This document shows positions 25,984 to 54,045 of a stretch of DNA of 64,000 bases, one piece after another (the stretch's first letter is position 1; the number at the start of each line of letters is the position of its first letter). The stretch comes from Verrucomicrobiota bacterium. Lineage in GTDB: Bacteria > Verrucomicrobiota > Verrucomicrobiia > Chthoniobacterales > SZAS-18. The DNA is taken from contig JAFEGM010000003.1 of assembly GCA_018240025.1 (NCBI GenBank), positions 138,806 through 202,805 on the forward strand, read 5' to 3'. Both the position numbers and the translations under genes were made by a program. Under the pieces are notes generated by a model, which saw nothing but the letters and a program-made list of their open reading frames with translations, searched no databases and had not been told where the DNA came from.

Positions 25984-26001
25984 ACTGCGGAAAATCGCAG
26001 T
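25984..26001. promoter_or_regulatory. Inverted repeat in the leader of the ankyrin gene
   Basis: ACTGCG-GAAAAT-CGCAGT is a perfect 6-bp inverted repeat 40 bp before the ATG. It may be an operator or an mRNA hairpin. Nothing else links it to a known regulator. Confidence 0.4.
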
Positions 26002-26041
26002 GACATTTTCGGTCCCCTCACCTCCACCTCCTAAACCTGTC

Positions 26042-27742
26042 ATGAATCTCAACCGAACCCTCGGTGCGCTCCTGTGCGCCTCGACGGTGGCCGCCGTACC
26101 GGTCCTCCTGACCGGCTGCGGCAAGTCCGCCGACCAAGCCAAGGCACGTCTCGCGAAAGCCAACGTGTCGTTCACGCCGGACGACTTCGTACGCGCCGCC
26201 GGCCAGGGCGATGTCGACCTGCTCGGCCTCTTTCTCCAGGCCGGCATGGACAAGAACGCGCAGGACGCGCGCGGCTGGACGGCCCTGATGAAGGCGTCTG
26301 AGGCCGGGCACAAGAAGGTGGTCAAGGCACTGCTGCAGTACGGCGCCAAGACCGAGCTGACCAACGCCGACGGCAGCACGGCGCTAATCCTCGCGGCGGG
26401 CAACGATCATCATGAATGCGTGCGCGCGCTGATCGACTCGGCCGCGGACGTCAACGCCAAGAACGCCAAGGGTTGGACCGCGCTGGCCATGGCCGCCTAC
26501 CGCGGACACGCGAAGACGACGGAGGTTCTGCTGAAAACCTCGCGCGATGCCCTGGCGAAGTCCGATGCCCTCAGTCGTGCGCTGATGGTCTCCGCACTGC
26601 TGGGCCACGCCGACATCGCCCGCCTGTTGCTCGACGCCGGCGCGCCGGTCAACACCACCATCGAGAAGCAGCAGACCGCGCTGATGTTCGCCGCCATGGG
26701 CGCGAAGAAGGATCTGGTGCAGCTGCTGCTCAGCCGCGGCGCCGATACCGCGCTGATGAATCAGGACGGTTCGACCGCCTCCATCCTGGCGCTGCAGAAG
26801 GGCCACACGGAGATCGCCAAGATCATCGACACCTACGCCGCCAACACGCCGCAAACGACCAATCGCAGCACGGTCCTGGCCGCCGCGCCTGCCGCGCCCG
26901 CCCCGGTGGCTCCGAGCGCTGCGGCAGCGCCAGCTGCTCCGGCCAAGGGTTCGTCGCCCGCGCCCGCGAGCGGCCTGACGCCGCCTACGCTCACGGCGAG
27001 TCCGTCGGCCAAGCCCGGCCAGGCGGTCGGTCCCGCGCCCAAGCCGGTGGCCGATCCCGCGGTCGTCGCACAGGCTGACGCCAATGCGGCCCGGCTCGAG
27101 CAGACGTTCCTCAAGGAGCGCAAGGTCGATCCGCAGGCGCTGCTCGCCGTCGATACCGGTCAGGATTCCGACGGCGACGGCTGGACCGATTCCGAGGAGG
27201 TCGCTTACGGCAGCAACCCGAACGATCCCGGCTCGCATCCGCCGCTCCACACCAAGCTGCGCATGGCCAAGCTCGATGCGCAGCCGTTCCCGGTCGTCTT
27301 CGAGGGCGTGGAGGGCAAGCGCGCCGTTATCACCATCCAGCACGGGCAGCTGTCCGAACGTCACGTTTTGGCGGTCGGTAACTCCGTCCCCGGCGAAGGC
27401 TGGAAGGTGGCCGGCATTCGCCCGCGCCGCACGGTCGACAAGTCGGGCACGACGCTCGACGTCTCCGAACTCGTGCTGCAGAGCCCGTCGACCGGCGAGA
27501 AGCTGGTTTTGGTGAAATCGATGCTGGCCAACGCGCCCGGCGGTTCCGCCACGCTCTCGCTCGAAGGCATGGATCGTGAGATCCAGGTGAAGGAGAAGCA
27601 GGTCTTTGCCCTCGGGCCCGACGAGAGCGAGCGCTACACCGTGCTCGACATTCGTCCCACCCAGGTCGTGTTGAAGGTGCACGGCACCGGCGACGTCATC
27701 ACCGTGACGATGCGCGAGCCGATGCCCCAGGCGCGACGCTGA
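26042..27742 (+). CDS. Ankyrin-repeat lipoprotein with calcium-binding and C-terminal beta domains
   Basis: A 566-residue envelope lipoprotein. The lipobox LTGC (Cys26) anchors it. Residues 45-275 form about seven ankyrin repeats (GWTALMKASEAGHKKVVKAL and similar). A Pro/Ala linker (280-360) is followed by a thrombospondin-type-3 calcium loop, DSDGDGWTD. The C-terminal 165 residues form two beta repeats (VFEGVEGKRAVITIQ ..., SATLSLEGMDREIQV ...), seen in pilus-associated or periplasmic proteins of this phylum. It is probably a scaffold at the cell surface or in the periplasm. The partner is unknown. Confidence 0.82.
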   Translation: MNLNRTLGALLCASTVAAVPVLLTGCGKSADQAKARLAKANVSFTPDDFVRAAGQGDVDLLGLFLQAGMDKNAQDARGWTALMKASEAGHKKVVKALLQYGAKTELTNADGSTALILAAGNDHHECVRALIDSAADVNAKNAKGWTALAMAAYRGHAKTTEVLLKTSRDALAKSDALSRALMVSALLGHADIARLLLDAGAPVNTTIEKQQTALMFAAMGAKKDLVQLLLSRGADTALMNQDGSTASILALQKGHTEIAKIIDTYAANTPQTTNRSTVLAAAPAAPAPVAPSAAAAPAAPAKGSSPAPASGLTPPTLTASPSAKPGQAVGPAPKPVADPAVVAQADANAARLEQTFLKERKVDPQALLAVDTGQDSDGDGWTDSEEVAYGSNPNDPGSHPPLHTKLRMAKLDAQPFPVVFEGVEGKRAVITIQHGQLSERHVLAVGNSVPGEGWKVAGIRPRRTVDKSGTTLDVSELVLQSPSTGEKLVLVKSMLANAPGGSATLSLEGMDREIQVKEKQVFALGPDESERYTVLDIRPTQVVLKVHGTGDVITVTMREPMPQARR

Positions 27743-27752
27743 GGGGGGGAGA

Positions 27753-28070
27753 AGCGGCCTGCGGCTTTGGTCGTTGCGAAGACGACGGCTGAGGAGCGGC
27801 CTGCGGCTTTGGTCGTTGCGAGGACGAGGACGACGACGAGGACGAGGACGATCTCGAGTAGCGGCCTTTGTCCGCGAGCTGTCGGTGACGCTGCCCTCGC
27901 CCACGACTAGTAGGGACGTGCTCCCGCACGTCCGCGAGCCGTCGGTGACGCTGCCATCGCCGACGACTGGTAGGGACGTGCTCCTGCACGTCCGCGAGCC
28001 GTCGGTGACGCTGCCATCGCCCACGACTAGTAGGGACGTGCTCCCGCACGTCCGCGAGCCGTCGGTGACG
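27753..28070. repeat. 60-bp tandem array with hairpins, preceded by a 42-bp duplication
   Basis: Two copies of GCGGCCTGCGGCTTTGGTCG (27754 and 27796) are followed by GAGGAC repeats. A partial unit and then three full units of exactly 60 bp come next. Each unit holds the hairpin GGACGTGC-TCCC-GCACGTCC (27914, 27974, 28034; the second copy has TCCT in the loop). The 338-nt gap contains no gene. Single copies lie at 29365-29384 (reversed), with variants at 63924-64000. Confidence 0.92.
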
Positions 28071-28080
28071 CGTCACCCCG

Positions 28081-29560: not shown

Positions 29561-29720
29561 CGGTGCTTCCGTGAGCCAACGCGGCATGGCAGACGCCTTG
29601 ACCCGACGGCAAAAGCGGACATGTCAGGGGCAGTGAATGTGCCGGGGCGGCATTGTCTTTGAATTCGCAGCCGCTAGCCTCGGCCCCTTCGAGCACTTCA
29701 CCTTCACCGAGACCTTCACC

Positions 29721-30500
29721 ATGGCGCTTTCCACCACCGCTCTTCTTTCTCGCGCTTGCGCGCTCGCTCTGCTGGCCGCTCCCGCGAGTGCGGCCGTGCT
29801 CTTCGACCTTTCGAACTTCAATACGCTGCCGCTGGGCAACGGGGCCAATGGGGCCAACACGAGCGTCATTTCGACGGGCTCGACCACCTTCGGGCTCAAT
29901 GCGAACAGCGTCAGCAGCACGTTGCAGCTCGCGACGCCGTTCACGCTGGGCTCCGATGCGACCATCAGCTCGTTCACCTTCTTCGCCTACTCGACCAGCA
30001 CCTACGGCAATCCGCCGGTCTCGCCCTTCACCGGCGGCACCGTCTCGATCTTTACCGCCGACCCGGCGGCCGGTGGAACGGTGATCACCACGTCCACGAC
30101 GTTTGGCGGGTCGGCCTTCTCGGGCACCTACCGGGTGTCCTCGACGACCCTGACCAACACCCAGCGTCCGGTCTTCAGCCTGACGATCAATCTCCCCGAT
30201 TTCGCGCTGAGCGCGGGTACCTACTACGTGGCCTTCGCGCCTACGACGATGAACACCGCGGCCGGCGGCTCGACCGCTTCCGTCTTCACGCCGCCGGTGC
30301 TCAACGCGGATGGTTCGCTCTTCGCCGGAGGAGGCAGTCAGTTCAACACCGCCTGGGCTGCCACGACGGATGCCGCGCTGGGCACCCGCTACGCCTTCCC
30401 GATCATCGTAAACGGCACTGCCGTTCCCGAACCGTCGGTCATGGCGCTCGGGCTCGTGGGCCTCGGGGCTCTGCTCGTCCGGGCTCGCCGCCGGGCCTGA
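29721..30500 (+). CDS. PEP-CTERM sorted exported protein
   Basis: A 259-residue secreted protein with a signal peptide at residues 1-25. It has a Ser/Thr/Gly-rich beta body of the choice-of-anchor type. The C-terminal sorting signal is complete: VPEPS, a hydrophobic helix (VMALGLVGLGALLV) and a terminal RARRRA. Such proteins are processed by an exosortase and sent to the envelope or matrix. The exosortase is not in the window. It is similar in layout to the protein at 45445-46194. Confidence 0.88.
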   Translation: MALSTTALLSRACALALLAAPASAAVLFDLSNFNTLPLGNGANGANTSVISTGSTTFGLNANSVSSTLQLATPFTLGSDATISSFTFFAYSTSTYGNPPVSPFTGGTVSIFTADPAAGGTVITTSTTFGGSAFSGTYRVSSTTLTNTQRPVFSLTINLPDFALSAGTYYVAFAPTTMNTAAGGSTASVFTPPVLNADGSLFAGGGSQFNTAWAATTDAALGTRYAFPIIVNGTAVPEPSVMALGLVGLGALLVRARRRA

Positions 30501-30808
30501 GCGTCGGCGCGGCGCTTGCGCGCACTGCGGGTGTCAGAAATTCTGCCTCAAAGAACACAGAGAACGCAAAGAAAAGGCAGCCCGCAGCACAAACACTCGC
30601 TGCCACCGATCATCTGCGTCGAATCCGGTAAATCTGCGGACCTGCTCGACGGCGCCGTTAGCGCCCACGCGGCACGTTTCTTCGGATGTGGGGATGGGAG
30701 TTATTGCCTCAAAGAGCGCAGAGAACGCAAAGAGAAGGCAGGCGGCCGTCGTTCCGCCTGCGCTTCCCCGGAAATCTGCGTCGAATCCCGTAAATCTGCG
30801 GACTTCCG
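30501..30808. repeat. Two copies of a compound dispersed repeat
   Basis: The 308-nt gap holds two copies of the same compound unit. Each begins with a GCCTCAAAGA...GAACGCAAAG block (near 30543 and 30708). Each ends with an ATCTGCGTCGAATCC ... AAATCTGCGGAC block (near 30610 and 30775). The CAAAGAACGCAAAG type recurs at 63834-63865. No gene or terminator is obvious. Confidence 0.75.
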
Positions 30809-32236
30809 TTACGGCGCGTATTCCCGCCAGCGCGGCCACAGGCCGGCCAGCGCGGCGCCGGTGAGCAGCAGGGTGAGCCAGCAGGCGGATTGCCCGAGCG
30901 AGCTGGAGGCGGCCTGGCCGCGGGCGAGGGCGCGCTCGAACTGGGCTTGGTTCACGTCCAGCGCCTGGTTCAGGGCGGACTCGAGGCGGGTGAAGGCGGC
31001 GTTCGAGCCATCGCGCTCGTGGCTGAGGCAGAGGCGGATGGCCTCGGCGCGGCGGTCGCTGGCGGCGAGTTGGCGGATGACGCCGTCGGTCTCGGCGTAG
31101 CGGGCGAATTCCTGCGCGGCATTCAGCAGTGCCTCGCGCTCGTCGGGGTAGGTGACGTTGCGCAGGGCGACGGCGAGAGTGCCGTCGAAGCCGCTCGTGC
31201 CGCGCGGGCCGTCGAGCTCGGCGAGGACGCGGGTCCACGGCACGCCGGCGGGACGGCGCAGGATATGGGCGAGCGCGACGTCGGTCTCGCCGAGGGCCAC
31301 GGCTGCGACCGAGGGATCGAGCAGCGCGCGGCTTTCGAGACGGTTGGCCTCGGCAGCGCTGGCGCGGGTCTGCCAGAGCGCGGCGATCGAGGCGAACGCA
31401 TCGGCCCGTGCTTCGCGCAGGGCTTCGCTGGCGCGGTAGTGGCGCGAGCCGGCGATGACCGCGAGCAGCACCCAGAGCGCACTGGCGGCGAGCAGGCCGG
31501 GATTGAGCAGGCGCCGCGTGCGCCGCTGGAGATAGACCTGCGCTCCGACCAGCGCGGCCGCGGTCAGGCCGAAGGCGCCGAACATGGCCCAACCCTGGCG
31601 CTCGGCGGCGTCGTGGCCCTGGCGACAGGCGGCTTCGAAGGCGTCGGCATTGACCCGCGCCAGCGCCTCGGCCGCGCTGCGCAACGGACCGCGCAACAGG
31701 TTCTGCCCGAGCGCGGCGGCCTCGATCGCGCCGTCGTGGTGACCGAGGCGTTCGAGCGTCTGCGCGCGCATCATCTCGGCTTCGTATTGACCGAGTCCGG
31801 CGACGAGGCGCACCAGGGGCTCCTTCTCGGCCGCGCCGAAGGTGACGTTGCCGGCCGCCTCGACCAGGAGGGTTCCGAGTTCGGTGCGGAGGCGATGCAT
31901 CTCGCGCCGGGCGAGGTCGAGATCGCGCGGATCGGCCGCGGTCAGGAACTGGTCGACCAGGCTGGCGTCGAGCGCCGACAGCGCCACGCGCAGCCGCCAG
32001 GCGGCCACGATGGACGGCGCGCAGTCGTAGCCGACCGCGCGCAGGGTTGCGCGCTGACTGCCGGCGGAATGCGTCAGCGTGAGCGCCAGCAGAAGGGCCG
32101 CGCCGACGATGGCCGCGCCGAGCTGCAGGAGGCGGGCGGGCGTGGAGCGAGCTCGTGCGACCGTGGCCAGCGGAGCATCGTGCAGGCTGGCGGGAGCGAA
32201 GGCGGAGAGCGCGGGACGAAGGGCGAGCGTTTTCAT
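30809..32236 (-). CDS. GlnX-like four-helix membrane sensor
   Basis: A 475-residue membrane protein with two similar halves. TM1 is about 37-55 and TM2 about 216-236, enclosing a 160-residue helical extracytoplasmic domain. TM3 is about 246-264 and TM4 about 447-466, enclosing a second domain of about 180 residues. This topology and its place beside a PknG-type kinase match actinobacterial GlnX, which relays binding of amino acids by the lipoprotein GlnH to PknG. No GlnH is encoded here. Sequence similarity to GlnX cannot be judged by eye, so the assignment rests on topology and context. It overlaps the FHA gene by 4 bp and ends the operon. Confidence 0.6.
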   Translation of the reverse strand: MKTLALRPALSAFAPASLHDAPLATVARARSTPARLLQLGAAIVGAALLLALTLTHSAGSQRATLRAVGYDCAPSIVAAWRLRVALSALDASLVDQFLTAADPRDLDLARREMHRLRTELGTLLVEAAGNVTFGAAEKEPLVRLVAGLGQYEAEMMRAQTLERLGHHDGAIEAAALGQNLLRGPLRSAAEALARVNADAFEAACRQGHDAAERQGWAMFGAFGLTAAALVGAQVYLQRRTRRLLNPGLLAASALWVLLAVIAGSRHYRASEALREARADAFASIAALWQTRASAAEANRLESRALLDPSVAAVALGETDVALAHILRRPAGVPWTRVLAELDGPRGTSGFDGTLAVALRNVTYPDEREALLNAAQEFARYAETDGVIRQLAASDRRAEAIRLCLSHERDGSNAAFTRLESALNQALDVNQAQFERALARGQAASSSLGQSACWLTLLLTGAALAGLWPRWREYAP

Positions 32237-32898
32237 CGTTGGCGCAGCAGGAGTTCCGTCCAGCGACCGAGCTGCAGGCGGTCGCCGTCGTGCAAGGCGA
32301 GAGGGATCTGCGCGGGCACGGGCGTGCCGTTGCGGAGGGTGCCGTTGGCCGAGCCGAGGTCGATCAGCTCTACTCCGTCGGCGTGGACGCGCAGGCGCGC
32401 GTGGCGGTGGGAAATACCGTCGTCGTCGTCGAGCGCGATCTCGGGCTGGATACCACGCCGCGCGCTGTGCCGGCCGACGAGCTGGTCCGGCAGATCGAGC
32501 GGAAAGACCCGCGCGACGGCCCGCAATTCCGCCGGCGCGTCGTCGCCGAGGGCGCGCGCCTCCACGTCCCAGCGGAGCGTGGCAACCGGCTCCGACGCGG
32601 GCACGGCAGCGGGCTCGCGAGCCGCGCTCGCGGGCGGCTCGACCGGCACCAGCGCCGCGCTGGCGAGGCCTTGGGCGGCCAGTTCGAAATGGCAGCCGCA
32701 TTCCTCGCAGTACGCGCTGTCGGCCGCGCCGCGCGGCGCGTGGCAGACGGGGCATTCGCCCGCCGCAGTCGCGGGCGGAGTCGGTGTCGGCAGCGGCGCG
32801 GATGCCGCGGCGGCGGCCACGGGCGCTTCGAGGGCGAGACCGCAGACGCTGCAGAAGTCGTCCGTGTCGGACCAGTGCTGTTGGGGACAATGCGGCAT
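32233..32898 (-). CDS. Zinc-ribbon FHA-domain protein
   Basis: A 221-residue cytoplasmic protein. Two zinc ribbons (C4 ... CSVCG 16-20; CPVC 49-52 ... CEECG 64-68) precede a low-complexity linker. An FHA domain follows at about 138-212 with its core residues: GRH, SHRHARL and LGSANGT. FHA domains bind phosphothreonine. In actinobacteria the FHA proteins OdhI/GarA are the main PknG substrates and control 2-oxoglutarate dehydrogenase. Here no ETTS-type phosphosite precedes the FHA domain, so it is more likely a reader of the kinase's other targets. It starts 1 bp after the VWA stop. Confidence 0.85.
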   Translation of the reverse strand: MPHCPQQHWSDTDDFCSVCGLALEAPVAAAAASAPLPTPTPPATAAGECPVCHAPRGAADSAYCEECGCHFELAAQGLASAALVPVEPPASAAREPAAVPASEPVATLRWDVEARALGDDAPAELRAVARVFPLDLPDQLVGRHSARRGIQPEIALDDDDGISHRHARLRVHADGVELIDLGSANGTLRNGTPVPAQIPLALHDGDRLQLGRWTELLLRQR

Positions 32899-32899
32899 G

Positions 32900-34180
32900 T
32901 CAGGCGAGGCGGCGGGTGCGGGTGGAGCGGGTGTCGAGCGCCATGGCATCGGCCTCGTCGATCTCGCGGCGGAGCTTCACGGTGCCCTCGCGCTCGTCGA
33001 CGATGTCGACCACGCGGCGGAGCAGACGGGTGGTGGCGTCATGCCCGTGCGCGGCGGCCAGTTGGACGGCGCGGCCGAGTTTGCGCGTGGCGGCCTCGGC
33101 GTCGCCGGCCTGGCGCGCGGCCAAGCCTTCCTGGATGGCTTGGGCGAGTTCGCCCTGGCCGGTGTAGTGCGCCACGGTGCGGTCGATGACGGCGGTCCGC
33201 TCCTCGTCGTCGGTCCAGATGGCCAGGACCTGCGCCTCGGCTTGGCGCGGGGCGTCGGGGGCTTCGGAGAGGACGAGGCCGACCTTGCCCGCGAGCATGC
33301 GCTGGCCGAGCTGGCCGGGCTTCACGCGCAGGGCGAAGTGGTAGTCGCGCGTCTCGCGGCCCGCCCACGAACCGGTCGGGTAATCGCGGATCTGCCCCGT
33401 GGTGCCGGACGCGGGCGCGAGGTCGAGAATCTCGGGCGCGACCTGCCGGCAATAGAGCACGCTGGCGCCCTGCGGGGTCCAGAGCCGCAGGCGGACGTCG
33501 GCCACCGCGCGTTCCAGCGCCTGGCCGAGGATGGCACGGAAGTCGGCTGCGAGCAGCGCGGGCTCGGGCACGATGTCCACGGTGCCGAGCAGGCGTTGGC
33601 CGATGAGCCGCAGCTCGGCCACCTGCCAGTCCACACCCACGCCGCGGGCGTGGCATTCGAAGACCCCGGCGCAATGGCGCAGCGCGGCCTCGAGATCGTC
33701 CTGCCCGTCGTTCTTGCCGTCGGTCAGGAGCAGAGCCTGACAGATGAGCGCGCCGCGCGACTCGCGCAGCGCCTCGAAATGCTGCTGGGCCAGCCGCAGC
33801 CAGGTCGACATGCGCGTGCCGCCGCCGTGCTGCAGCGCGCGCACGGCCTGGATGGCGGCGGCGCGATTGGCCGCGGTGGCGCGCTGCGGCAGCACCAGCG
33901 TCTCGGCCCGCTCGCGGCCGAGCACGACGAAGAAATGGCAGTCCTCGCGCAACAGCTCGAGTGCCTCGACGACCGCGGTCTTGGCGCAGCGCAGCCGCTC
34001 GGCGCCGTCGTCGCCCATCGAGCCCGAGACATCGAGCAACAGCCCGAAGGCGAGCTCGCCCGCGGGCGCGGCCTTGCCCGCCTCGGCCGCGGAGGCCTGC
34101 ACGCTGACGATGGCGTGGACCTCGTCCGCGCCGCGCGGGAGGTAGGGGTTCTGGAATACCTGCGAGGTGAATGTGGGCAT
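32900..34180 (-). CDS. VWA-domain protein with metal-binding site (TerY-like)
   Basis: A 426-residue soluble protein. The VWA domain (residues about 22-230) has the MIDAS motif DVSGS at residues 50-54, a Thr in GGGTRMS and an acidic LLTDGKND motif, so it can bind a metal-coordinated ligand. A beta-rich central domain (240-330) and a helical C-terminus (340-426) follow. VWA, PP2C and kinase genes together define the TerY-P triad described in bacterial stress-response clusters. It lies 12 bp after the phosphatase gene. Confidence 0.88.
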   Translation of the reverse strand: MPTFTSQVFQNPYLPRGADEVHAIVSVQASAAEAGKAAPAGELAFGLLLDVSGSMGDDGAERLRCAKTAVVEALELLREDCHFFVVLGRERAETLVLPQRATAANRAAAIQAVRALQHGGGTRMSTWLRLAQQHFEALRESRGALICQALLLTDGKNDGQDDLEAALRHCAGVFECHARGVGVDWQVAELRLIGQRLLGTVDIVPEPALLAADFRAILGQALERAVADVRLRLWTPQGASVLYCRQVAPEILDLAPASGTTGQIRDYPTGSWAGRETRDYHFALRVKPGQLGQRMLAGKVGLVLSEAPDAPRQAEAQVLAIWTDDEERTAVIDRTVAHYTGQGELAQAIQEGLAARQAGDAEAATRKLGRAVQLAAAHGHDATTRLLRRVVDIVDEREGTVKLRREIDEADAMALDTRSTRTRRLA

Positions 34181-34192
34181 GGTCGGGATGGG

Positions 34193-35089
34193 TTAGGAAA
34201 TCCGGGCGAGCGCGACGGTGACGTTGTCGCGTCCGCCGCAACGGCAGGCGGCCTGCACGAGCAGGCGGGCGAGTGCGAGGAGCGGCTCGGCGGCGGCGGC
34301 GGTGTCGCGCTCGGCGGCGCGGAACAGACGCGCCAGCAGCGCGGGATCGGGGTGATAGCGCCACCAGCCGTCGGTGCAGAGCAGCAGCCAGCCGGGGCCG
34401 GGCGCGTCGAAACGCACGAGCTCGGGCTCATCCGGCAGATCGTCGGCCTGGAGCGGCCCGCCGAGCGTACGCAGGACGCAGGCGGCGTCGGGATGCGCCC
34501 GCGCCTCGGCGGCGGTGAGCTGACCGCTGGCGATCGCCTCCTCAGCCCAGGAGTGATCGCGCGTCAGCGGCAGCGCGGGGCCTTCGGCGCCGACGAAATA
34601 AGCGCGGCTGTCGCCCAGCCAGGCGAGTTCGACGCGGCGCTGGCGCAGGCGGGCGGCCACGAGGGTGCATTCGGGGGGATCGAGGTGGGCGGGCACGTCC
34701 GAGGCGGCCGCGAGCGTGCGCACCGCGGCTTCGGCGGCCGCGACCCCGCCGGAGAGTCCGTGGCCGGCCAGCAGGGCATCGAGACACACCGCCGCGGCGC
34801 GCTCGGCGGCCTCGGCCGGCCGATGCGAGCGCGAGACACCATCGCAGACGACCAGGCAGCGCAGTTCGCCCGTCGCGCCGAGCGCGCAGGCATCCTCGTT
34901 GGCGGCGTGGCGCAGGCCGCGGTCGGAGACGGCGGCGAGGTCTGCGCCGACGGTGCGTTCGAGATGTGCGCGCGGATCGGCCGGCCGCTCGGGCGCGGGC
35001 GCGGGCAGCGCGCGCAGCGGCGCACCGCATTCCTCGCAGAAGTTGGCGGGCGAACGGCTCTCGCCCGCGCGGCAGAGGGTGCATTCCAT
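34193..35089 (-). CDS. PP2C-family Ser/Thr phosphatase with zinc ribbon
   Basis: A 298-residue phosphatase. An N-terminal zinc ribbon (CTLC ... CEECG, residues 3-22) precedes a PP2C domain from about 50. Metal-binding residues are present: SDRG...NEDA (55-67), CDGVS (Asp83), WLGDSRAY, DGWW and GGRDNVTV. It probably reverses phosphorylation by the neighbouring kinase. The larger frame upstream overlaps the kinase gene; ATG 35089 was chosen because it gives the zinc ribbon at residue 3 and a 7-bp gap. Confidence 0.92.
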   Translation of the reverse strand: MECTLCRAGESRSPANFCEECGAPLRALPAPAPERPADPRAHLERTVGADLAAVSDRGLRHAANEDACALGATGELRCLVVCDGVSRSHRPAEAAERAAAVCLDALLAGHGLSGGVAAAEAAVRTLAAASDVPAHLDPPECTLVAARLRQRRVELAWLGDSRAYFVGAEGPALPLTRDHSWAEEAIASGQLTAAEARAHPDAACVLRTLGGPLQADDLPDEPELVRFDAPGPGWLLLCTDGWWRYHPDPALLARLFRAAERDTAAAAEPLLALARLLVQAACRCGGRDNVTVALARIS

Positions 35090-35096
35090 GGCGGAA

Positions 35097-37298
35097 TCAG
35101 AACAGGGTGGTGGGCCGCACTTCGTTGGCGCGGTCGATGAGCCAGACCTTCTCGCGCGGATCGGCGCGCAGGCGGGCCAGCTCGCGGTAGGTCCGTTCGA
35201 GCGCGCGCCGCAGCGGCACTTCGTCGAACGGCGCGCCGAGGAGATCCGTCTGGGGCGAGGCCGGGAGCTGACCGGCCACGAGCGTGGCCAGCGCCTGGGC
35301 GTGCAGCTCGATGCCGAGCCGGTGCCGGCATTCGGGCTCGAGCGCGAGTCCGCTGGCGACGGTCGATGCCGCTGCGAAGGCGTCGGCATCGGCCGCGCCC
35401 TCGGCCAGGCAGCGGGCCAGGGCGAGCTGGGCGCGACTGCGCAGCAGCGCCTCGGGCGGCACGCTGCCGAGCGCGCGAGCCGCGCTGGGGCGGTCGTCCC
35501 CGGCCAGCGCGCAGCGCGCCCAGCCGAAGCTGGCGCCGATCGCGCCGCGATCGGCCAGGGCGAGTAGTTGGTGCAGGCCGAGCGCCTGGGCCGATTGCCC
35601 GGCCACCTCGTGGGCCAGGGCGAGCGCATACTTCGGCGCGCTCTCGCCGGGCAATTCCGCCACCACCGCATCGAAGGCCGCGATGGCCTCGGCGCAGCGT
35701 TCGCGCTGGAGCGCGAGGCGTCCGCGCAGCCAGGGGAGGCGCCAGTCATCGGGGGCGTCGAGCCGGCCGAGCGTGCGCTCCGCGACCTCGAATTCGCCGG
35801 CCTGCCCGAGCGCCTGCACGAGCGCAAGCAGCGCCTCCGCGCTGTCCGGAAAGCGCTCGACCGCGCGGCGCCGCATTTCGAGCCGACGCGCCGGCAAACG
35901 GAGCGACGACTGGCTGAGCAGAAATCCGGCGGCCGGATCGTCCGGATCGACGCGCCAGCCCGGCAGGCATTCCACCGCGAGCTCGGAGCGGAGGGGACGC
36001 CCGAGCAGCGGATCGGTCCCGCGCACCAACTCGGGCGCGGCGAAGAGGAGCGGATCGGCCGTGAAATACAGACTCTCGGCCGCGCGGGGCTCGGCGCCGT
36101 CCACCGCCACGACCTCGCGGAGCACGCCGGCGAGCTGCGCGGCCATCTCGTCGGCACTGGCGAAGCGGCGGGCGGGATCGAGGTGGGTGGCCTTGCGCAG
36201 GAAGGCATGCAGCGACGGATGCTGCGCGAGGAGCGGCTGTTCGTCGGGCGGCTGGAGCGTGAATTCGTAGAGGCCCTGGAAGCCTTTGAAATCGAGCAGC
36301 AGCACCGCCAGCGTGCGGCCGAGCGTGAAGAGATCGCCCGCGATCGACGGACCGCGGGTCGACTCCGGCGCGCTGTAGCCGCGGGTGCCGAAGAGATCGC
36401 CGCTCTCGTCGTCTGCGCGGCGGACCGCGCCGAGATCGATCAGCTTCACGTCGCCGCCTTCGAGCATGATGTTCTCCGGCTTGCAGTCGCAGTAGATGAG
36501 CGGCGGCTCCTGCGCGTGCAGATAGGCGAAGGCGCCGAGGATGCGGTGGACGTAGGCGATGGCCTCGGCCGGCGGCAGCGGCCCGCGTTCCTTGCGCAGC
36601 GCGCGCAGCGTGCGGCCGCCGACGTATTCCATGACGATGTAGCCGTCGGCGCCGTGGCGGACGAAGTTGTAGACGCCCACGATGTTGGCGTGCTTGACCG
36701 CGGCCAGGAACTGCCGCTCGGCCACCGCGGCGGCGGCGCTGGCTTCGTCGCGCGCATTGAGCAGACCCTTCAGCACGACCCAGCGCGAGAGGAGTCGGTC
36801 CTGAGCGAGGAAGATCCAGCCGAAGCCGCCGTAGGCCAGCGGGCCGAGAATCTCGTACTGCTCGGCCACGACCTCCCCGGCGTGGAGCGGCGGGAGGAAG
36901 GAATAGGCCTGACCGCATTTCGGGCAGAAACCTTTCTCGCGGCGCAGCTTCTCGTCGCAGGCCGGACAGATGCGACGCGCCTCGGGCACGACGGCGTCGC
37001 GCAGGATGACCGTGGCCGGATCGAGCGCGGGCAGTTCGGGCACGTGCACCAGGCCGAGGCCGAGCGCGCGCCGCGAGGAGGCCGTGCGGGTCGTGCGGCG
37101 CGTACTGCCGCCGCTGTGCGCACTGCCGGAACGGGCCGTGGTGGAGCCGGTGGCCGCGGTGCCGGAAGTCACGGCGGTGACGCGTCGCGAGGAGGCGGCG
37201 CCGAGCGCGCCTTCGAGGCCGCAGGTGGTGCAGAAGCCGTCCTCGACCTGGCCGAGGCAGGCGGGGTTCGAACAGCGGGCGGTGGGGTCAGTGGACAT
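35097..37298 (-). CDS. pknG: PknG-type Ser/Thr protein kinase
   Basis: A 733-residue soluble kinase with the PknG layout. A zinc ribbon (C9, C14, C23, C26) and a Ser/Thr/Arg-rich linker precede a rubredoxin-like CPAC/CPKC pair (Cys111, 114, 125, 128). The kinase domain is about 148-400 and a TPR-like C-terminal half is about 480-700. Catalytic residues are intact: P-loop YGGFG, Lys177 in VVLKG, Glu194, Asp271 and Lys273 in YCDCKPEN, and a DLG Asp288. The catalytic loop lacks the HRD arginine, as in PknG. The end ANEVRPTTLF closely matches the PknG tail. In actinobacteria PknG senses amino acids and redox state. Confidence 0.95.
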   Translation of the reverse strand: MSTDPTARCSNPACLGQVEDGFCTTCGLEGALGAASSRRVTAVTSGTAATGSTTARSGSAHSGGSTRRTTRTASSRRALGLGLVHVPELPALDPATVILRDAVVPEARRICPACDEKLRREKGFCPKCGQAYSFLPPLHAGEVVAEQYEILGPLAYGGFGWIFLAQDRLLSRWVVLKGLLNARDEASAAAAVAERQFLAAVKHANIVGVYNFVRHGADGYIVMEYVGGRTLRALRKERGPLPPAEAIAYVHRILGAFAYLHAQEPPLIYCDCKPENIMLEGGDVKLIDLGAVRRADDESGDLFGTRGYSAPESTRGPSIAGDLFTLGRTLAVLLLDFKGFQGLYEFTLQPPDEQPLLAQHPSLHAFLRKATHLDPARRFASADEMAAQLAGVLREVVAVDGAEPRAAESLYFTADPLLFAAPELVRGTDPLLGRPLRSELAVECLPGWRVDPDDPAAGFLLSQSSLRLPARRLEMRRRAVERFPDSAEALLALVQALGQAGEFEVAERTLGRLDAPDDWRLPWLRGRLALQRERCAEAIAAFDAVVAELPGESAPKYALALAHEVAGQSAQALGLHQLLALADRGAIGASFGWARCALAGDDRPSAARALGSVPPEALLRSRAQLALARCLAEGAADADAFAAASTVASGLALEPECRHRLGIELHAQALATLVAGQLPASPQTDLLGAPFDEVPLRRALERTYRELARLRADPREKVWLIDRANEVRPTTLF

Positions 37299-38343
37299 GG
37301 CGATGGAGGCGTTGCTGGCAACGGGCGAGCAGGGTCTGCACGCGCGGGAGGGCGGTAGGCGGCGTGAGCAGCAGGCGCTGCGCTTCGAGCGCGGCGGCGC
37401 TGAACTGCTCCCACTCACTCAGCCGCCGCGCGCCGGCCTGGGCCTGGAGCGCGCGCAGCCAGCCGCGCAGACGGCGGCGTTCGGCCAGCGCGTCGTCGGC
37501 CGCGCGGGCGGCGGCCTGGCAGGCGGTGGCGAATTCCGCGGCGCGCGCATCCCAGGCGGAGAGACTGCGCGCGGCCAGGTCCCAGCGTTGCGCGGCGGCG
37601 ACGCGATCGAGCCGCTCGCGCCAGTCGGCCAGCGTGCGCAAGGCCACGGGCGAGGGGAGCGGCGGCGCGGCAAGGTCGAGAATGCGCGCCTCGCGCTCGC
37701 CGACCCGCCCGGCCGTGGTGGCGAAGAGCGCGCGCAGTTCGGTCAGGCGTGCGGGCAACCCAGCCAGGCGCGCCGCGGTGGCGGTGCGGACGCGCTCGGC
37801 GGCTGCGCCCGCAGCGCGCAGGCTGCGGAGCGCGGGCTCGATTTCGTCGCTCAGCGCGGCGGCGACGCCGAGGGGATCCGTCGGCAGCGCTGCGCGGAGC
37901 GAGTCGAGTCGCTGCGCGAGGGCGTCGAGTGGCGCGGCGTCCGCCGGGCGACCGCCGCCGAACGCCGCCGCGCCGCGCAGGGCGGCGAGCTGGCGTTCGC
38001 CTTCGGCCAACTGCGCCGGCAGACGTTCCCAGGCCTCGGCGAAGCGCGCGAGGCAGGTCTGCGCCGAGGCGGTCTCGCGGCGCAGCTGCCGGGCCCGCGC
38101 TGGCAGTTCGGCGGGCGCGAGGGCGAGTTCCTCGAAGTGCGTTAGCGCGCCGCGCACGGCCGCGACCGCGGTCGCCGCAACGGCCTGGGACGCGCCGCCC
38201 AGCGCGAGCGCGGGTGTGTGCAGATCGCCCGCGAGGCGACGGTAGACGGGGTGTTCGTAGAGCGCCGTGACCCGCGCGGCTAGGGCCGTCAGCAGGTCGG
38301 CAGCGTCCCGCCCCCCCGCCTCCAGCAGGTGGGTGGTGGACAC
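37288..38343 (-). CDS. Helical protein of unknown function, first gene of the PknG operon
   Basis: A 351-residue Ala/Arg/Leu-rich, almost wholly helical soluble protein. It has no signal peptide, membrane helix or cysteine motif beyond scattered Cys. I do not recognise it. Long amphipathic stretches (residues about 75-125 and 165-230) suggest coiled coils or a helical-repeat scaffold. It overlaps the kinase start by 11 bp, so it is translationally linked and is probably a partner or scaffold of the kinase. A 259-nt gap upstream contains a perfect TTTGCGCAAA palindrome (38457-38466). Confidence 0.65.
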   Translation of the reverse strand: MSTTHLLEAGGRDAADLLTALAARVTALYEHPVYRRLAGDLHTPALALGGASQAVAATAVAAVRGALTHFEELALAPAELPARARQLRRETASAQTCLARFAEAWERLPAQLAEGERQLAALRGAAAFGGGRPADAAPLDALAQRLDSLRAALPTDPLGVAAALSDEIEPALRSLRAAGAAAERVRTATAARLAGLPARLTELRALFATTAGRVGEREARILDLAAPPLPSPVALRTLADWRERLDRVAAAQRWDLAARSLSAWDARAAEFATACQAAARAADDALAERRRLRGWLRALQAQAGARRLSEWEQFSAAALEAQRLLLTPPTALPRVQTLLARCQQRLHRHVH

Positions 38344-42189: not shown

Positions 42190-42272
42190 TCCCGTCTCCG
42201 ATCTCCCGTCTCCCGTCTCCCGTCTCCCGTCTCCCGTCTCCCGTCTCCCGTCTCCCGTCTCCCGTCTCCCGA
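42190..42272 (-). repeat. Heptamer tandem array, GGGAGAC type on the minus strand
   Basis: About eleven 7-bp units (CCCGTCT on the plus strand) run almost up to the endonuclease V start. On the minus strand the unit is a rotation of GGAGACG, the same family as 5839-5919. Confidence 0.92.
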
Positions 42273-53583: not shown

Positions 53584-53766
53584 GTTGAGGAACTCGCGCG
53601 ACTCCCTTTGCCGCTCCCAGGCTAGTCTGAACTCAGCAGCCGGCCTGCACGGCCCGGGCGTTAAGGCGATTCGGCAAGCGAAACGCGGGCGAATTCCGGG
53701 GCTGACGGGCTTTGGCCAGGCAGCGAGGCGTCCCTGAAGCGCCACTCTGGATGCGTGGCCGGCAAA

Positions 53767-54045
53767 CGCGCCGCGTCTGGGCTACCTAATGCCGTGCGCG
53801 GGGGCAGGCGCGCCGCATCTGGGCGGTCGAACACGATTCGCTGGCACAAACGCGCCGCGTCTGGGCTACCGAACGCCGTGCGCGGGGGCAGGCGCGCCGC
53901 ATCTGGGCGGTCGAACGCGATTCGCTGGCACAAACGCGCCGCGTCTGGGCTACCGAACGCCGTGCGCTGGGGCAGACGCGCCGCGTTTGGGCGGTCCAGC
54001 GCCGTCCGGCGGACCGAAAGGGCGCCGTCCGGGCCGTCGAACGCC
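53767..54045. repeat. 42-bp tandem array with alternating subunits
   Basis: Six units of exactly 42 bp start at 53767, 53809, 53851, 53893, 53935 and 53977, with a degenerate seventh. Two subunit types alternate. Both begin CGCGCCGC(G/A)TCTGGGC, then differ: A has CTACCGAACGCCGTGCGCGG, B has GGTCGAACGCGATTCGCTGG. The period is a multiple of 3, so both strands stay open in some frames, but no start or signal supports a gene. Confidence 0.9.

Follow-up and report, generated by a model that had tools for sequence, protein, structure and literature searches.

A PknG-type kinase operon from a Verrucomicrobiota bacterium as a putative phospho-switch built around a conserved VWA protein tail

Which protein does a PknG-type kinase act on when its gene is found without those for GlnH and OdhI/GarA? 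This question is raised by a six-gene operon on the minus strand (positions 30809-38343) of a 64,000-nucleotide stretch of DNA from a Verrucomicrobiota bacterium (contig JAFEGM010000003.1), the whole of which we refer to as the window. The best reading of this operon appears to us to be a nutrient-responsive phospho-switch, in which PknG would mark the C-terminal tail of a VWA protein, an FHA protein would bind the marked tail, and a PP2C-type phosphatase would erase the mark; we regard this reading as having an even chance of being correct.

The operon and the conserved tail of its VWA protein

According to their open reading frame coordinates, the six genes lie head to tail and encode, from the first gene onward, a helical protein (hel; 351 amino acids; 37288-38343), a PknG-type kinase (733 amino acids; 35097-37298), a PP2C-type phosphatase (298 amino acids; 34193-35089), a VWA protein (426 amino acids; 32900-34180), an FHA protein (221 amino acids; 32233-32898) and a GlnX-like membrane protein (475 amino acids; 30809-32236). 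The hel and PknG genes overlap by 11 bp and the FHA and GlnX-like genes by 4 bp; gaps of 7, 12 and 1 bp separate PknG from PP2C, PP2C from VWA and VWA from FHA, respectively. An initial annotation of this DNA had described this arrangement correctly.

The VWA protein is central to our reading. It matches the Pfam family VWA_3_C (7.3e-19) and possesses the metal ion-dependent adhesion site (MIDAS) DVSGS noted in the initial annotation (D50-S52-S54). Its predicted model unites a VWA domain, a beta-sandwich and a C-terminal helix bundle in one protein, which is the architecture of ArnB, and model residues 1-423 could be superposed on residues 2-379 of the ArnB chain. A profile match to ArnB (8s05_A; E 9.6e-11) spans residues 47-209, the VWA domain alone. 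The tail (residues 415-426, LDTRSTRTRRLA; 32903-32938, minus strand) is a putative phospho-acceptor. Among the best 120 of the 7731 VWA homologues that passed the threshold, the window protein included, all 120 carry L[DE]TRSxxT within their last 45 residues (e.g., ALETRSTKTTRIPK), and T417, R418, S419 and T422 are identical throughout an alignment of 47 chosen VWA rows. The related pattern [LIVM][DE]TxSxxT is present in 71/71 actinobacterial VWA proteins counted (9 of 80 loci, which had no VWA match over 200 bits, were dropped). Its core, [LIVM][DE]TxS, has a single match among 43,974 residues outside the final 60, and among the six window proteins it is confined to the VWA tail. The target threonine of PknG is T21 of GarA or T14 of OdhI (PMC2784874), the first threonine of VETTS in the peptide as printed in PMC8546545; the likeness shared with the VWA tail is [VL][DE]TxS.

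That the kinase is a PknG, as first annotated, is borne out by its domain order and by its match to the M. tuberculosis enzyme. The Pfam families PknG_rubred (PF16919; 7.6e-15), Pkinase (PF00069; 3.8e-31) and PknG_TPR (PF16918; 1.8e-47) were all found above cut-off and in this sequence, so that the protein comprises, from its N- to its C-terminus, a Cys motif, a Ser/Thr-rich linker, a rubredoxin-like domain, the kinase domain and a TPR region. M. tuberculosis PknG (2pzi) aligned over residues 78-733 with 393 bits, while the best PknB scored 80 bits. Lys177, Asp271, Lys273, the DLG motif (Asp288) and the tail VRPTTLF (727-733), all named in the initial annotation, are present; K177, E194, D271, K273, N276 and D288, as well as the four rubredoxin cysteines, are invariant in 70/70 kinase rows. 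PADLOC displayed 25 kinase models for this protein, none of them specific to PknG. Two side observations concern kinases: genome G000 is rich in them, with 25 matches to the PknG query over many contigs and only one of full length, and Streptomyces PknG (e.g., locus L049) carries a Ser/Arg-rich linker, SRRSVSGRLSRS..., in front of the rubredoxin-like domain that is suggestive of many phospho-sites.

Profiles likewise confirmed the PP2C phosphatase and the FHA protein of the initial annotation, and both look intact from their sequences. The phosphatase has an N-terminal zinc-ribbon-like Cys motif and matches PP2C_2 (9e-9); five PP2C Asp positions are retained in every ungapped row of a 75-row alignment. 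The FHA protein matches the FHA family above cut-off (1.4e-14, 54.7 bits), and Gly142, Arg143, Ser163, His166, Asn185 and Gly186 are present in 47/47 aligned rows. In an ArnA-like layout, two zinc-ribbon-like motifs precede the FHA domain; DZR scored 22.6 bits, under its cut-off of 27.3, and the Cys motifs are legible. This protein is not an OdhI/GarA (33.9 bits vs an NCBIfam equivalog cut-off of 200), and the pattern [LIVM][DE]TxS, the form of the N-terminal ETTS phospho-motif of OdhI/GarA, is absent from it. Seven FHA matches were found in the window genome, one of them the operon's own FHA gene, and none scored over the OdhI cut-off (best 44 vs 200 bits); control of oxoglutarate dehydrogenase is therefore unsupported here.

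The helical protein belongs to no Pfam family above cut-off. A profile built from 74 actinobacterial proteins whose genes lie just upstream of PknG matched it at E 1.7e-7 (the lowest E among 1000 shuffles was 0.2), and by this sequence comparison it is a relative of the actinobacterial hel family. Its model is mostly helical (mean predicted local distance difference test score 80.7, with a poor N-terminal part); a fold search gave no match at E <= 0.001, and sequence-profile matches were weak (best E 0.0011).

The last protein matches the GlnX subfamily model NF058618 over residues 30-473 (7.7e-57, 193.3 bits), and we call it GlnX-like because the curated NCBIfam cut-off of 250 bits is missed. 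The initial annotation had seen a membrane protein with four helices; the membrane protein stands, and its helices were recovered in part, as three segments in a simple hydropathy scan. GlnX itself is characterized by four TM helices and two periplasmic helical bundles. The C-terminal motif [RW]x(2-3)EY, present here as R-x-x-EY and retained in 82/85 GlnX tails, is by analogy a candidate contact to PknG. No GlnH gene lies beside the GlnX-like gene in the operon. In the same genome the best GlnH match, at 33% identity, looks like the binding protein encoded in an ATP-binding cassette transporter operon, with two weaker matches left unexamined, and no match was present on the fetched contigs of genomes G025 (4.3 and 4.0 kb) and G002 (12.7 kb). 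Of the membrane-to-cytoplasm switch for amino acids or stress originally envisaged, we retain the membrane-to-cytoplasm phospho-switch; the amino-acid signal is unsupported here, since no GlnH partner was found.

A proposed switch and its relation to known systems

We infer the steps of sensing, phosphorylation and binding as follows. Published work on GlnX and PknG (PMC6069109; PMC9769921; PMC8546545), as far as these sources describe it, leads us to suppose that the GlnX-like protein senses a periplasmic signal and relays it through its conserved C-terminus to the TPR domain of PknG; with GlnH missing, GlnX would sense the ligand itself or borrow the binding protein of a transporter. PknG would probably autophosphorylate its Thr/Ser-rich N-terminal linker, by analogy with the M. 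tuberculosis and C. glutamicum enzymes, and thereby recruit the FHA protein. Phosphorylation of the VWA tail by PknG would then make an FHA-binding site, and the grip between the two proteins might shift, as in ArnA-ArnB, from a loose contact of the zinc ribbon with VWA to a tight one of FHA with the phospho-tail. Erasure of the tail phosphate by PP2C would reset the switch.

This locus resembles known systems in part. Like the window, the GlnH-GlnX-PknG-OdhI/GarA pathway of Mycobacterium and Corynebacterium comprises a PknG with rubredoxin-like and TPR domains (the Corynebacterium enzyme, unlike the window kinase, lacks the rubredoxin part), a GlnX-like membrane protein, an FHA protein and a target-like motif [VL][DE]TxS. 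It differs in that the window has no GlnH and its FHA protein is not OdhI; conversely, the pathway in its published outline is without the helical protein, PP2C, VWA and zinc-ribbon FHA proteins, i.e., four of the six window genes. The ArnA-ArnB pair, which with the kinase ArnC and the phosphatase PP2A regulates the Sulfolobus archaellum, shares with the window a VWA protein of ArnB architecture (predicted in the window), a zinc-ribbon plus FHA partner, whose gene in the window lies beside that of the VWA protein with a 1-bp gap, a Ser/Thr kinase with a TPR region and a phosphatase. A hydrophobic-E/D-T motif is common to both; it is phosphorylated in ArnB and lies at a different place in the window protein. 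The phosphatase is PP2A there and PP2C here, the membrane sensor GlnX belongs to the window, and nutrient control is established only for ArnAB, that of the window operon being our conjecture.

Several points weigh against the proposed switch. The best 120 of 7731 VWA sequences lean to close relatives. The motif likeness is short, at five residues, and does not correspond in position to SIETT. In the model, the tail maps close to where the ArnB chain ends, nearer T375 than T353, and part of it is helical (409-418), so that T417 may be less exposed than in a free peptide. The T417 position is not universal, since the solved relative 4fx5 reads LDVVSTKT, with Val-Val replacing Thr-Arg. By sequence, the similarity to ArnB is restricted to the VWA domain, and, according to the authors of PMC12852372, the ArnB fold is widespread and mostly not tied to multi-phosphorylation. 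The TPR region is N-terminal in ArnC and C-terminal in the window PknG. To these have to be added the GlnX score below its curated cut-off and the missing GlnH.

On a more tentative level, with the odds somewhat against it, the bacterial PknG locus and the archaeal ArnA-ArnB-ArnC system could be versions of one ancient nutrient switch made of a TPR kinase, a C-terminal hydrophobic-E/D-T motif in an ArnB-type VWA protein, a zinc-ribbon FHA clamp and a phosphatase eraser. In that case GarA/OdhI, with the motif on the FHA protein itself, would represent a late and simplified branch, and the window would hold the switch coupled to GlnX without GlnH. The parts themselves have been described before, and the order of the genes is nothing unusual in the actinobacteria examined. 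The open literature searched yielded no account of the GlnH-less form outside Actinobacteria, of the VWA-tail motif or of a link between PknG and ArnAB. There, PknG combined with von Willebrand returned nothing on the locus, and PknG combined with ArnB returned papers that by title treat other subjects. If the VWA tail is a conserved substrate, with FHA and PP2C as its reader and eraser, then direct tests of substrate, reader and phosphatase become possible for many PknG loci. The same would point to an origin of GarA/OdhI control in an older VWA-FHA switch and would tie a bacterial nutrient pathway to archaeal motility control. The GlnH-less version raises the question of what GlnX can sense by itself.

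Counterparts, alternative explanations and origin

We fetched the best 80 of 556 PknG relatives from named genomes, all actinobacterial by name, and counted gene neighbors on the 66 loci with >=5.5 kb on both sides (14 shorter loci were dropped). VWA, PP2C and GlnX were each found in 65 of them, hel and GlnH each in 64, and FHA was found in 61. The GlnX gene is upstream of the PknG gene in 59 loci and downstream of it in 6; in the remaining locus no GlnX was found. All six window genes thus have counterparts in a seven-gene actinobacterial locus, whose order in Actinomadura (hel-PknG-PP2C-VWA-FHA-GlnX-GlnH) is that of the window plus GlnH; in Streptomyces and Kitasatospora, GlnX-GlnH are found upstream. 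Since the fetched loci of these three genera usually carry this gene set, the suggestion in the initial annotation that this operon merges two systems cannot be upheld. A Nonomuraea locus contains hel, PknG, VWA, FHA, GlnX and GlnH and gave no PP2C match in that scan; around PknG of Nocardia farcinica only GlnX and GlnH were found. The GlnX-GlnH-PknG form given in the published accounts (PMC6069109; PMC9769921) is only one version of the locus. In side observations, a PknG-like gene on a plasmid of Nocardia sp. NBC_01327 (L129) adjoins an amino acid permease gene, with no GlnX/GlnH match in the 13-kb locus. Two Actinomadura loci encode, after GlnH, a further protein with a similar N-terminus (L041:17101-18261 and L112:17394-18647), the L041 copy of which belongs to no Pfam family.

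These neighborhoods bear on two alternatives. The VWA and FHA proteins might be scaffolds, with some other metabolic regulator or an enzyme as the target of PknG, as OdhI/GarA is in actinobacteria, and with the VWA tail in a structural or docking role. The described GlnH-GlnX-PknG-OdhI/GarA pathway, which in the accounts cited acts on oxoglutarate dehydrogenase (PMC6069109; PMC9769921; PMC8546545), would fit this, as would the position of the tail, partly helical in the model and partly inside VWA_3_C, so that its invariance may be structural. We nevertheless hold it to be rather unlikely, given that no OdhI over cut-off was found in the window genome, that VWA and FHA genes neighbor PknG in G025 and in the majority of the actinobacterial loci examined, and that elsewhere VWA is linked to PknG by contigs of exactly equal size (of 119 kinases and 119 VWA proteins listed, 12 kinases have such a partner, against 0.41 expected). 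Less likely still is a trio of the TerY-P kind that controls either a stress response or how a larger complex is put together, GlnX having been recruited as an additional input. The TerY-P triad comprises a TerY-type VWA protein and a TerY-P kinase with a C-terminal zinc ribbon. As in that triad, the kinase, PP2C and VWA genes are adjacent in the window, and a kinase-PP2C-standalone vWA trio has been published for actinobacterial GAP1-N2 neighborhoods (PMC7159879). The window kinase, however, is a PknG with rubredoxin and TPR domains, GlnX (65/66) and FHA (61/66) are regular partners in the actinobacterial loci, and Pfam detected no Ter, GTPase or MoxR family in four actinobacterial locus proteins and seven window flank proteins.

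A third alternative, a recent import from an actinobacterium that kept the actinobacterial amino-acid pathway, draws on the gene order shared with Actinomadura, on a high overall GC content (74-75%) and on the very patchy distribution of the operon in the order and phylum. At E <= 1e-80, PknG is present in 2/213 genomes of the order, the window included, and in 1/387 genomes of the phylum, the window itself; VWA_3_C exceeds its cut-off in 1/288 genomes, again the window. Strong GlnX matches are limited to three of the order's 213 genomes (the window, G025 and G002, a member of the window's genus in which GlnX is cut by the contig end), and weak partial matches in 12 more cover ~80 of 413 positions. 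Co-occurrence in a related genome was found in G025, which has PknG, PP2C and VWA in this order on one short contig and VWA, FHA and GlnX on a second; each contig breaks off within the VWA gene. Against an import stands the kinase tree, whose 70 rows are all PknG relatives, so that other kinase families lie outside its test (69/119 listed kinases and 65/80 fetched actinobacterial loci were left out). It contains 18 actinobacterial kinases, which are set apart from all other rows by a branch with 100% support in the Shimodaira-Hasegawa-like approximate likelihood ratio test (SH-aLRT). The window kinase lies on the other side in a different, non-actinobacterial clade; it groups first with four proteins (65-76% identity) and next with G025 and a further row, and is nearer to named planctomycete than to named cyanobacterial rows. 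The GC content at third codon positions (GC3) of the six genes (0.86-0.93) matches that of 21 other window genes (0.886 +- 0.029), the high overall value reflects amino-acid make-up, and GlnH is missing. We consequently reject a recent actinobacterial transfer, on the strength of the tree where the kinase is concerned and of GC3 where the operon is concerned; as a whole, this explanation is very improbable and for the kinase mostly refuted. The tree and GC3 also speak against a gift from Actinobacteria as the form of the transfer that the initial annotation had considered possible. The patchiness does fit some transfer, or much loss.

We read the operon, from its sequence relationships, as an old cassette, patchily inherited or passed around. 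Kinase and VWA distance matrices correlate at 0.97 over 25 rows, which suggests that the two proteins travel together; linked genes inherited vertically would show this pattern too. PknG was described as mostly restricted to Actinobacteria, with Ktedonobacter and Calothrix as the exceptions given (Lisa et al., 2021; PMC8546545). Its occurrence outside that phylum, which the initial annotation had treated as exceptional, is not: 6201 homologues were found at E <= 1e-40, and Nostoc, Calothrix, Singulisphaera and Isosphaeraceae are named among the best 120. Plasmid and viral collections contained no cyanobacterial or planctomycete DNA context of PknG, so the kinase-VWA linkage in those groups rests on equal-sized contigs.

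Genomic setting

An SppA gene ~4.5 kb from the operon on the same contig is closest to those of two same-genus genomes (63% and 56%), followed by three of four same-family genomes (50-52%), with no match in the fourth. SppA thus follows kinship, contamination is unlikely, and the contig looks genuine for this genome by this comparison. A 16S probe-site pattern gave no match in this assembly. No relative of the gene adjoining the operon was found in 22 other genomes, and the SppA neighborhoods of G001, G002 and G004 have SppA alone in common with the window; synteny therefore demonstrates no empty site. No promoters were found, an Rfam search of the locus gave no match, and terminators in the region occur at chance level, so that a terminator-like hairpin ~48 bp past the GlnX-like stop codon (30738-30761, minus strand) is a weak candidate.

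The operon adjoins a gene for a PEP-CTERM-like protein (29637-30500), which at 20.5 bits falls just under the Pfam cut-off of 20.7. Between the two, a 23-bp element, GATTTACGGGATTCGACGCAGAT, occurs twice (30612-30634 and 30774-30796), with one mismatch in one copy and 0 expected in shuffles. Farther away, the window encodes an ankyrin-repeat protein with a bacterial TSP3 repeat (26000-27742) and contains tandem arrays with units of 60 bp (27870-28071) and 84 bp (53763-53996), as well as 7-bp tandem arrays (e.g., 42190-42271).

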